From Gammaproteobacteria bacterium (GTDB lineage: Bacteria; Pseudomonadota; Gammaproteobacteria; Ga0077536), in contig JACPPA010000023.1 in the NCBI GenBank assembly GCA_016191285.1, positions 62,001 to 126,000 of the forward strand: a stretch of DNA of 64,000 nucleotides. The letters run 5' to 3'. Shown here piece by piece: positions 58,641 to 61,902 of the stretch. Position numbers and translations under genes: made by a program. The notes beneath the pieces are model-generated. The model saw nothing but the letters and a program-made list of their open reading frames with translations, was not told where the DNA came from and searched no databases. The stretch's first letter is position 1; the number at the start of each line of letters is the position of its first letter.

Positions 58641-58906
58641 TCAAACGCAAGGTGTTGAACGCTCTCGAGGCGCATCGCGAGCGCCGCGACACTTGGCAGC
58701 GTCCCGCTGCAATATCCAACGCCCGGTGAGTTCCATGCAGACAGTGGTTGCCTGGGGCTGAGACAATTGGAAGGAACATTCCGCAGACATCAGCTAACAA
58801 GCGCTCAAGAAAATCCCATGGACGCGCGATTTCGGCCCGTTGCAATTTCTATCGTTCATGACATAGCGCAATGTCGATACGCCAAGAATGGCCTAACCTT
58901 TACAGC

Positions 58907-59350
58907 ATGAACATTCAATTAAAACGCTTTTTAATTCCGGCACTAACTTTTGCGTATGTCCACGCCGCATTCGGCGATATGGAAGGCGACACCCTGAAAG
59001 CTGCATGTTCATCGAGCGATGAGGTCAAGTTGCTTATCTGTAGAACATACCTGGACGCCGTTATTGAAACTCATACGCTCACGGCGGCAGCATTTAAGGG
59101 ATTCTTTGAATCGTCTGGGTATAAAAAACCGGTTCCAATCCTGTGGTGCCCACCGCTTCCACGTAAGCATAAAGATATTTCTTTCTATGACGCTCATATT
59201 GATTTCGATCAAGCACGCCCGGTTGTCCTAAATTACCTTGATAAACATCCTGATGTGATGCACGTGACTGCGGCCGAATTAGTCATGGAAGCATTTAGTG
59301 CCGCGTTCCCTCATTCAGGACCCGATGGCTCGTGCCCAAAGCCACGTTGA
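58907..59350 (+). CDS. Rap1a/Tai immunity-like exported protein, copy 2
   Basis: 147 residues from ATG 58907 with a signal peptide (RFLIPALTFAYVHAAFG). The pattern GDTLKAACSSSDE, CRTYLDAVIETHTL, WCPPLPR and VVLNYLDKHPDVMHVTAAELVMEAFSAAFP matches the protein at 38532, including Cys positions and the HP segment. AT content is higher than the neighbours', and the ribosome site is weak, so it may have been acquired. No type VI effector or secretion gene is nearby. Confidence 0.68.
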   Translation: MNIQLKRFLIPALTFAYVHAAFGDMEGDTLKAACSSSDEVKLLICRTYLDAVIETHTLTAAAFKGFFESSGYKKPVPILWCPPLPRKHKDISFYDAHIDFDQARPVVLNYLDKHPDVMHVTAAELVMEAFSAAFPHSGPDGSCPKPR

Positions 59351-59689: not shown

Positions 59690-60340
59690 TTAAGTTATCC
59701 GCAGGTGATCTTCAACGGCACGAACGCCCGGCGCGGACCACACGGCACGCGCAACCGCGCGGCGCTCGTCCCAATTGTCGACATCGCCAGCTATGCTGAC
59801 TTTGCCTCCATCAAGAACCGAGACCTGAATGCGGCCGGCTTCAACTTCTGCGTGTCGTTTCAGCGCATCCGCGATGCGTTGTTTTACATCAGACGGTAAC
59901 ACCGTGGGCGTCAACGTGATGTCGTTCATGATTCCCACCACGCCCGACAGTTTGCGGACATCGGCTTCAGCAACTGTACGCTGAAAGTTCCAGTTCACTT
60001 GACCGGTCAAGGTCACCCAGCCCTTTTGTACTTTAACGTGCAAGGCGTCGCGCGGAATCGACGTATTCCACGCCAGCACGCTGATCGCACGCTGCGCGAT
60101 CTCATCGTCGTTTTGCCGTTTATCACCCGGCAGGCGTACTTCTATTTCCTGCGCGATCGCCTTGACGCCTTTAATCCGCCACGCGGCTCTTTCAGCGGCC
60201 ATTTTTTGCGGGTAACTCATAACATGTCCGGTCAGCGTCACGACGCCATTTTCAGCCGCTACACCGATTTCCGCAGCATCGATGCTCGGTTCGAAATCCA
60301 GCTCATCGACTACGCTTTGACGTAATTGTTTGTCGTTCAT
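59690..60340 (-). CDS. Triple BON-domain protein
   Basis: 216 residues built from three BON domains (about 5-70, 80-145, 150-216), each with a TLTGHV, TLTGQV or SIAGDV strand and a V/I-E-like ending. BON domains bind phospholipid membranes and stabilise envelopes under stress. No signal peptide is obvious, so it may act in the cytosol or at the membrane face. A perfect TTGAC-N4-GTCAA site is 63 nt upstream. Confidence 0.9.
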   Translation of the reverse strand: MNDKQLRQSVVDELDFEPSIDAAEIGVAAENGVVTLTGHVMSYPQKMAAERAAWRIKGVKAIAQEIEVRLPGDKRQNDDEIAQRAISVLAWNTSIPRDALHVKVQKGWVTLTGQVNWNFQRTVAEADVRKLSGVVGIMNDITLTPTVLPSDVKQRIADALKRHAEVEAGRIQVSVLDGGKVSIAGDVDNWDERRAVARAVWSAPGVRAVEDHLRIT

Positions 60341-60403
60341 TGTGTACCTCAGATCGTGAGTTTCGGAGGAGCGAGATTGTGTATTACATTCCCCCTCGGC
60401 ACC

Positions 60404-60417
60404 TTGACTAAGGTCAA
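60404..60417. promoter_or_regulatory. TTGAC-N4-GTCAA site upstream of the BON gene
   Basis: TTGAC-TAAG-GTCAA, perfect arms, 63 nt before the BON-domain ATG. It is one of five perfect sites in this window. Confidence 0.62.
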
Positions 60418-60537
60418 TAAGACGCGTGCTTGTGTGGACGCGAACTTGCGGCCACTACTCTAGGCTATCTGCGCACCGAGCAGCCGCGCATCATCGGCAT
60501 TGGAAGAACCCAGCATCACGAATAACTCCTAAGGAAC

Positions 60538-60656
60538 CTCTGAATAAGTCCATCCTGGACTTATTCAGAGTACGGGAAGCAAAAAGTATGATTTTTGCTT
60601 CCCTTCATTTTCAATGGTTTGCAACCATCGAAAATGGCGGCACCTCCCTGTGCCGC
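60538..60656. repeat. Four consecutive hairpins, probable inserted element
   Basis: Stem 1: 15-bp perfect arms (60538-60570). Stem 2: 12-bp perfect arms GGGAAGCAAAAA (60574-60603). Stem 3: 14-bp arms with one mismatch (60606-60636). Stem 4: 7-bp arms (60637-60656). It overlaps the point where the host-attachment-like gene loses similarity, so it is probably an insertion. The left edge AAGGAACCTCTGAATAAGTC is like the end of some IS5-type elements, but no transposase is present. Confidence 0.65.
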
Positions 60657-61002
60657 GGGAAGCTCTGCTGCGCAATTTACCGAGCAGTCGCGGACCTGCG
60701 ACCAATATAATTTGCTCGCAATTTCCGTTCGCGCGACCGCTGTGTAGTTTGTTCGCCAGTTCTTTGGCAAAAAGATCCGTGACATGGTCAATAGGCGCTT
60801 CCTTGGGACTCAGGGCGTGTCGCTGCGGGCCAAAACGATCGAAGCTGCGTCCGCCGGCATCGGAATCCAAATCCCGATTTCGTAATCGTCCTTCCGGGTG
60901 GGGAATGTTTTCCACCAGATGCAAGGGTTGATGCTTTCCGGACTGCGAATACAGCCGGGCGCCGGCACGATGCGCGACTAAAATCCAAGTCGTGTGGGGC
61001 AT
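60565..61002 (-). pseudogene. Host-attachment-like protein, C-terminus replaced
   Basis: From ATG 61002, MPHTTWILVAHRAGARLYSQ, then GRSFDRFGPQRHALSPKE, FAKELANKLHSGRANGNCEQ and IILVAGPRLLGKLRS match the PF10116 'host attachment protein' family. After LGKLRS the frame enters the hairpin array and encodes unrelated residues to the stop at 60565. Family members go on another 30 or so residues, so it is truncated and possibly non-functional. Confidence 0.65.
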
Positions 61003-61161
61003 AAGCGTTCGCTCCATCAAGGATGATTGCATACCTGCCGCATGCGAAGGTTTGTGCGTCACTCGCTAGACATCGGACACTTCCCCTACAGGCTCCTGCA
61101 ATCCATGCGATGCGTTATGATCCAAATCGATCGCGCAAGACTTACTTTCACCGGTGATCAG

Positions 61162-61704
61162 TTACTCGGCTGGCTCAGACGGACCTGCGCCTCCAGTGGT
61201 ACCGGTTCGACGTACGGATTTCGCAGCCGCCTTGAGTTTCGTCGCGGTGTGTTCGATTGACGTTTGAATTTCGTCGAACAAATGTAGGGTATGGTCGCGC
61301 ATCTCTTGCCAGGTCTCCGTGCTGAGCGACCGTAACGCCGCGACCTTTTGTTCTGCCATGGCGCGCTTCTGGGCCAGCGCCGCAATCTGCTCGTGTATTT
61401 CCGCACCGAGCTTATCGCGGGTATCCCGGATAGTGGACGTAAATTCTTCGATGCGGTGGTCCCAGTCGTGAAGTAACGTTTCAAGTCGCTTGAGCAGAGA
61501 TTCCTTCTCGGCGTTGGCGTTTATTTGCGCGTCGCCGCCCTGGGCCAGCAACGTATCGATTTCGATCTCGGACTCGAGCCAGTCCTGTACGGGATCACCG
61601 GCCCAGAATCCACGCGCCTCGGCGCGAAAATAGGCGGCCTCGGCGATCATTTGCCAACGCTGGTCAGACAAAACATCAGGGGTCGATTCCAATTTAGTGG
61701 CCAT
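61162..61704 (-). CDS. DUF2934-domain coiled-coil protein
   Basis: 180 residues. The N-terminal DUF2934-like motif reads IAEAAYFRAEARGFWAGDP with DWLESEIEID; it is followed by a long coiled coil (about 65-165, KRAMAEQKVAALRSLSTET and similar) and a small basic tail. Function unknown. It may belong to the same stress regulon, since a TTGAC-N4-GTCAA site lies at 61903, though 199 nt away. Confidence 0.7.
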   Translation of the reverse strand: MATKLESTPDVLSDQRWQMIAEAAYFRAEARGFWAGDPVQDWLESEIEIDTLLAQGGDAQINANAEKESLLKRLETLLHDWDHRIEEFTSTIRDTRDKLGAEIHEQIAALAQKRAMAEQKVAALRSLSTETWQEMRDHTLHLFDEIQTSIEHTATKLKAAAKSVRRTGTTGGAGPSEPAE

Positions 61705-61902
61705 TACGAACTCCTTATTAATAATGCGCGCAAACTTAAAATCGGCGCGAATGATCTACTTGATTCCCACGGGCGTGCGCTGCCTCCGCTACTTCCAACA
61801 ACCGAATCGCCGACTTGTTGCTCATGTATTAATGCAGCCACTTTCCGTAGACTCGAGTATATCGCGCCCAGATAAAATCTACCGCGCCCGTGCGCGCCCG
61901 CG

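Follow-up and report, generated by a model that had tools for sequence, protein, structure and literature searches.

A five-hairpin IS5-type MITE next to a host-attachment-like gene whose missing end is most likely an assembly artefact

The locus described here lies in a 64,000-nucleotide stretch of a gammaproteobacterial genome (lineage Ga0077536; assembly GCA_016191285.1, contig JACPPA010000023.1, positions 62,001 to 126,000), hereafter called the window. Between two genes carried on the minus strand, positions 60533-60668 correspond to bases 1-136 of an IS5-type MITE, the complete form of which is 152 bp long. The features are as follows (window coordinates).

59690-60340, minus strand: gene with BON domains (PF04972), left of the MITE
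60529-60532, no strand: CTAA, presumed left 4-bp target duplication (YTAR), judged from sister copies; its right counterpart is absent here
60533-60668, plus strand: partial MITE, the right 16 bases absent at the join; 41 places of more than 100 bp in the own genome
60533-60548, plus strand: left terminal repeat GGAACCTCTGAATAAG, from the sequence and from comparison with complete copies
60538-60570, plus strand: hairpin 1, 15 bp, perfect, including part of the left terminal repeat
60574-60603, plus strand: hairpin 2, 12 bp, perfect, terminator-like in pattern
60606-60636, plus strand: hairpin 3, 13 pairs and one mismatch
60637-60656, plus strand: hairpin 4, 7 bp, terminator-like in pattern on the minus strand
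60658-60668, plus strand: hairpin 5, left arm only (right terminal repeat), the other arm being absent by comparison with complete copies
60668-60669, no strand: presumed faulty assembly join, from contig ends, shared runs and the JACQWY assembly
60669-61062, minus strand: host-attachment-like gene (PF10116 / PF18856), end missing; the ORF continues through the MITE to 60565

An initial annotation of the sequence had described four adjacent stems of 15, 12, 14 and 7 bp beside an IS-like edge; all four were found, although the third consists of 13 pairs and one mismatch, and the edge proved to be the left end of the MITE at 60533, preceded by CTAA. The hairpin array itself occupies 60538-60656, and a fifth hairpin is halved at 60668. 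Since 60669-61002 is coding sequence of the neighbouring gene and lies outside the array, the end of the element at 61002 given in that annotation was placed about 330 bases too far. Folding of 60538-61002 yielded z = -6.35, none of 100 shuffles being equally stable. Further to the left, at 58871-59350, the window carries an ORF with a Rap1a-type domain (PF18602, E 3.2e-11), which is immunity-protein-like.

The gene to the right of the element does lose its similarity to relatives at the array, as had been noticed. The match of the minus-strand ORF at 60565-61062 to the Host_attach profile (PF10116, E 6.9e-28) breaks off at position 114 of the 138 in the profile, and its local alignments to 11 homologues stop at residues 132-146, four of them at residue 132, which corresponds to base 60667 and adjoins the edge of the element. 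The 11 homologues carry 22-37 further residues past the aligned part (36 in both same-genus homologues), and this missing gene end is not encoded by the left flank in the three minus-strand frames that were read.

The suggestion of a structured mobile or repeat element is borne out by dozens of near-identical copies, by terminal inverted repeats, by 4-bp duplications and by a partner IS. A search of the own genome with 60530-60670 returned 121 matches, among them 41 places of more than 100 bp; one 68-bp match is a partial duplication inside another copy (L003), and the remaining short matches are nearly all hairpin arms found again by their own palindromic sequence on the opposite strand. With R1, a covariance model made from 21 aligned members of the family, 103 matches were obtained in the own genome at E <= 1e-6. 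The array is thus far from being a single copy. Complete sister copies are 152 bp long and finish in the fifth hairpin, so that both ends form imperfect inverted repeats (GGAACCTCTGAATAAG and GGAAGCTCTGCAAAAG, with 13 of 16 bases alike). Searched with at most one mismatch, the end motif gave 105 + 71 matches in the genome, as against 1 + 0 for the reversed control. Among 33 complete copies (own-genome loci found by their ends and fetched), the 4-bp flanks are identical in 26, 25 being YTAR, and not identical in seven; the window copy, which lacks its right end, shows no such pair. Duplication of YTAR is typical of IS5. At 152 bp the element is too short for a transposase gene of its own and contains only reading frames that run through it. 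Hence, it is an IS5-type MITE.

Other forms (151-bp, 86-88-bp, 179-bp and 224-bp) share the ends and some of the hairpins. In the 86-88-, 179- and 224-bp sub-forms (L071:2681-2859, L072:2673-2896, L073:2404-2489, L074:2430-2515, L075:2271-2358, L076:2563-2649), hairpins have been lost, or other hairpins inserted, between ends of the same type. A further member, of the 151-bp form, lies 407 bases past the window end (G000:C32:126407-126578) and is right-truncated at the same limit as the window copy. For three of the 33 complete copies (L012:1504, L023:1504, L024:1504), the insertion site is the central YTAR of a REP-like palindrome (GCGGCTAAAGCCGCTCCCACA type), and the start of contig C37 (L120) carries an uninterrupted palindrome of this type, so empty sites of the REP-like repeat do exist.

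The own genome also contains a candidate source of transposase. An IS5-family element of 1158 bp (L054:1323-2480), with TTAG on both sides, has the ends GGAACGTCTGAACAAG and GGAACTTCTGCATAAG, which agree with those of the MITE in 14 of 16 and 13 of 16 bases, and it holds a full-length transposase frame of 317 aa that matches NF033581 (E 7.3e-101) and PF01609. When eight carrier genomes were searched, this transposase family was present in four (G000, G148, G284, G105) and unmatched in the other four (G013, G043, G039, G136). IS ends are flanked by a 4-bp duplication in G148 (CTAA, TTAA) and in G284 (CTAG, CTAA, and CAAG at another copy), while in G105 the four bases read TAAG. In G284, moreover, most MITE ends have CGCTG in place of CTCTG, and the IS ends in L285 and L289 show the parallel change. 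From these sequence comparisons, we infer that the transposase at L054, or a relative of it, would mobilise the MITE in trans. A second copy of the IS5-family transposase gene (G000:C48:11573-12431; L286/L290) is read in two frames and looks broken.

The 45 copies of the 152- and 151-bp forms at the fetched loci comprise 19 with both ends and no large duplication (one of which, L006, has 7 extra end bases), 12 without the right end, including the window copy, 10 without the left end, and four with both ends plus a partial internal duplication of 13-66 bp. Truncated copies mostly retain about 136 bp, whichever side is lost. Sixty contig termini were examined, drawn from 60 contigs (40 at the start and 20 at the end; two starts read N): those with sequence in common share exact runs of up to 141 bp and never longer, and two contigs, C27 and C28, break off within a copy after 136 and 137 bp. 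Comparison of each copy with all the others gave a longest exact run of 137-143 in 20 of the 22 truncated copies (140 for the window copy), where values of 142-143 may include chance matches beside the cut, and 128 rather than about 141 in the other two; in the 19 copies with both ends and no large duplication, it is at most 140 and drops to 47 because of private differences. Since the run of a truncated copy is bounded by its own length, the independent evidence comes from the contig ends and from JACQWY, not from run lengths alone. JACQWY, a separate assembly, exhibits the same ceiling, with a longest shared run of 141-142 among 34 copies. In the closed genome G148, six of the ten fetched copies are identical across all 153 bp, which is what a resolved repeat should show. 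Each of the four internally duplicated copies has identical bases, four in number, on its two outer sides; hence, the correct neighbours were joined, but the overlap was mishandled.

We therefore infer that the missing gene end is most likely an assembly artefact and not biology. A de Bruijn assembly with k = 141 would have stopped the contig inside a repeat with identical copies, and the stopped contig would then have been joined to a neighbour across identical copies, with loss of sequence. At the window locus, the last 16 bp of the MITE on its right side, the CTAA expected after them and the terminal part of the gene would have been lost, and the true locus probably consists of a complete MITE downstream of a complete gene. 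MITEs and IS have been documented as a cause of gaps and misassembly in Porphyromonas, in the part of that report drawn on here (PMC5771137). The annotated replacement of the gene end by the array is not supported, since the cut falls at the same 141-bp shared-sequence limit as the contig ends and 20 of the 22 truncated copies. Truncated copies are also seen in the public JACQWY MAG (e.g., L147-L150, L155, L158, L161, L171), where adjacent genes may be miscut too.

It could be argued that the MITE right end and the gene end were truly lost together, through an adjacent deletion or because the DNA broke close to the middle of the terminal palindrome. Deletions commonly arise next to transposable elements, 22 of the 45 copies are truncated, the right cut falls in the middle of hairpin 5, and the left cuts lie within hairpin 1. 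However, the left cuts begin at base 17 and so miss the centre of hairpin 1, about 136 bp remain after either kind of truncation, just as contigs stop that far into a copy, the ceiling recurs in a second assembly, and the four copies with a partial internal duplication occur at the same limit with matching outer flanks; we thus regard a real truncation as improbable. For the truncated copies as a group, a real deletion at the palindrome centre was likewise dropped, as both truncation kinds have the same length and the contig ends share the 141-bp ceiling. A search of 40 genomes with 60671-61750 revealed no syntenic empty site, the own genome matching along with two short weak matches, and the same locus was found in alignable DNA in none of the 40 relatives searched. 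Altogether, we put at roughly 90% the probability that the window carries an IS5-type MITE whose right end and right duplication were lost, together with the gene end, by a faulty assembly join.

The family extends well beyond the own genome. An exact-pattern scan of public genomes (hairpin 4 and the first bases of hairpin 5) gave at least 94 stretches; among the matches listed were gammaproteobacterial MAGs (including Thiotrichales, Porticoccaceae and Pseudomonadales), the Olavius algarvensis Gamma 3 endosymbiont and one MAG named only Proteobacteria, and at least 82 matches fall in the pattern-scan stretches L144-L223. At E <= 1e-6, R1 matched 72 of 369 sampled genomes of the class, representing 52 of 272 genera, and in the phylum sample 45 of 398 genomes, namely the own genome, two others of the class and 42 that share the phylum only, 35 of the latter belonging to one family. 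Because the class and phylum searches score few candidates per genome under stricter filters, copy numbers obtained there are lower bounds. In closed genomes, R1 matches numbered 129 (G148), 45 (G284) and 86 (G043), and the loci fetched from these three genomes had identical 4-bp flanks in 16 of 30 cases (8 of 10 in G148). The plasmid and phage collections gave no match.

The same hairpin order also occurs between other ends, CAGGATGTTGAAAAAGG and CAGGCTGTTGAAAAA or similar in JALTLT and JACREF, and GGGTGTCGCAAAAG in G033. These other-end elements are found at L156, L163, L170, L192 and L200 (JALTLT), L233 (JACREF), and L037, L042 and L047 (G033), and JALTLT harbours both end kinds within one genome. 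Either the ends drift with their transposases, or bodies have been exchanged between ends. Tandem arrays with a spacing of about 124 bp were seen in G043 (C1:13925-14319 and 2569119-2569522) and in JACQWY (L148), their neighbouring units seeming to share a terminal hairpin. Such arrays, together with the dispersed palindromes, might suggest a REP/BIME-type repeat spread by a RAYT transposase, but the unit measures about 150 bp and has both terminal inverted repeats and 4-bp duplications, features not expected of REPs, as far as the parts of the REP reports cited below describe them, and the element is not a single 20-40 bp palindrome free of duplications; hence, we give this origin almost no weight against that of an IS5-type MITE.

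The conservation of the hairpins was assessed in two alignments. The first (A1; 21 members from 15 genomes) was aligned without structure and was not fitted to R1. Folded singly, all 21 members form five hairpins in a row (z -7.8 to -14.9). Double changes affect 13 of 39 pairs, with 67 cells as against 19.4 in shuffles (0 of 500 as high), and slid controls exhibit lower covariation; one of the five measures, further pair types, was not raised (25 vs 24.2 shuffled, 210 of 500 as high). The second (A2) has 34 rows, one poor partial row (L165:2034-2139) being counted with the rest. Since A2 was fitted to R1, its counts lean towards the R1 structure: double changes occur in 34 of 39 pairs, with 230 cells vs 56.1 in shuffles, and the covariation score is 0.504, compared with 0.146 for shuffled and at most 0.091 for slid alignments. 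Single folds of the 34 A2 rows plus L357 gave five hairpins in a row in 30 of 35 cases, the exceptions being L354, L356, L357, L361 and L165:2034-2139. Hairpin 3 is absent from R1 because MAFFT misaligned it; judged from the single folds and from RNAalifold on A2, which there left out hairpin 1, it behaves like the other hairpins. The loops, listed for A2 minus three rows (L165:2034-2139, L233:3088-3236, L356), carry recurrent words in most members: hairpin 1 has tcc, hairpin 2 gygtgr, hairpin 3 ttrc or similar and hairpin 4 tcc[ac].

Whether these stems are read as RNA or as DNA was approached through the non-Watson-Crick combinations. At the paired sites of A2, G.U appears 39 times vs 24 for A.C, 18 of the G.U coming from a single pair that closes the loop of hairpin 2; once both loop-closing pairs of this hairpin are set aside, the numbers are 21 and 23, in counts that ignore relatedness. 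The lack of a G.U excess over A.C suggests constraint or correction at the DNA level, and the covarying stems would accordingly appear to be DNA palindromes. As RNA, the minus strand gives the more stable fold in 81 of 95 members, with a mean difference of 4.0 kcal/mol, a bias that loop energies may explain; without further assumptions, the G.U/A.C test and the folding of both strands point in different ways. The array could be a structured RNA (a small RNA, a terminator pair or an RNA-level regulator) carried along by transposition, and this reading draws on the strong covariation, on the bias in strand stability and on two terminator-like hairpins in 60300-60900, one per strand, vs 0.6 expected. 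Nevertheless, a constraint on one RNA strand predicts something other than near-equal G.U and A.C outside the two loop-closing pairs, and Rfam provides no match to the array: Rfam 15 gave only a weak tmRNA match, far below cut-off, in 60000-61800 at E <= 1, and only a tRNA at the gathering cut-off in 12 loci with members. We consider a structured RNA unlikely.

The five hairpins are conserved as palindromes, and they may be maintained either by a role of the folded DNA or by mutation that corrects palindromes. Quasi-palindrome correction is a known mutational mechanism, in which template switching between the arms equalises the stems. The covariation might then be functionless, with the loops kept by common descent, and the G.U/A.C symmetry fits such a DNA-level process; we rate this at somewhat less than an even chance, as hairpin order and most of the loop words persist despite stems that differ between classes, and neutral correction alone does not preserve loops or spacing. 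A less probable reading is that the hairpins are functional DNA structures: an old MITE superfamily, present in several classes and with several end types, would keep five cruciform-forming palindromes with conserved loop words, and the extruded hairpins would be read by the transposase complex or by a host factor (e.g., at the replication fork), so that the folding of the DNA, in addition to the ends, would decide whether the element is mobilised or tolerated. The joint and strictly Watson-Crick changes of the stems make it possible to test whether the hairpins are read as folded DNA or are kept equal by mutation.

Two practical consequences follow from the family as described. Genes in draft genomes are cut by repeats that lie just above the word length of an assembler and occur as many identical copies, and the result mimics an insertion with a deletion; here, 22 of 45 copies are affected, and JACQWY likewise. 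Moreover, a structured element is common for which we found no description when the literature was searched for sequence words and for concepts, in a collection that covers few subscription papers and preprints; within the class, 72 of the 369 genomes sampled carry the element, and it also occurs in further classes of the phylum.

Among known systems close to the element, IS5-family IS (NF033581, transpos_IS5_4) have, as in the IS at L054, ends that start with GGAA, a similar 16-base motif and YTAR duplication; the MITE differs in having no transposase gene, and no resemblance was seen beyond the ends. REP/BIME palindromes are also dispersed, palindromic, high-copy DNA, but in the parts of the sources used here they measure 20-40 bp (PMC3733652, PMC4666352) and are without terminal repeats or duplications (PMC3733652). 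Intrastrand triplex motifs, in the portion of PMC4666352 concerned with them, are likewise repeated bacterial DNA prone to fold, but they are G/C-rich and shorter than 40 nt; compared by eye, the element is unlike their consensus, and this candidate was set aside. MITEAba12 of Acinetobacter, as far as the consulted text of PMC6382973 goes, is similar in being a MITE of 113 bp, with a partner IS recognised via similar ends and duplication length and with family-wide spread, but it has 9-bp duplications, other ends, the parent ISAba12 and no five-hairpin plan. Prokaryotic MITEs in general, in the sections of PMC10969869 considered, are short and non-autonomous, with terminal inverted repeats, target duplications, stem-loops and a partner IS, and nothing like five hairpins in a fixed order, with stems that covary across classes, is described there. 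The element is hence a MITE in kind, and it is the five-hairpin plan, conserved across classes, that sets it apart from the MITEs described in the consulted parts of PMC6382973 and PMC10969869.
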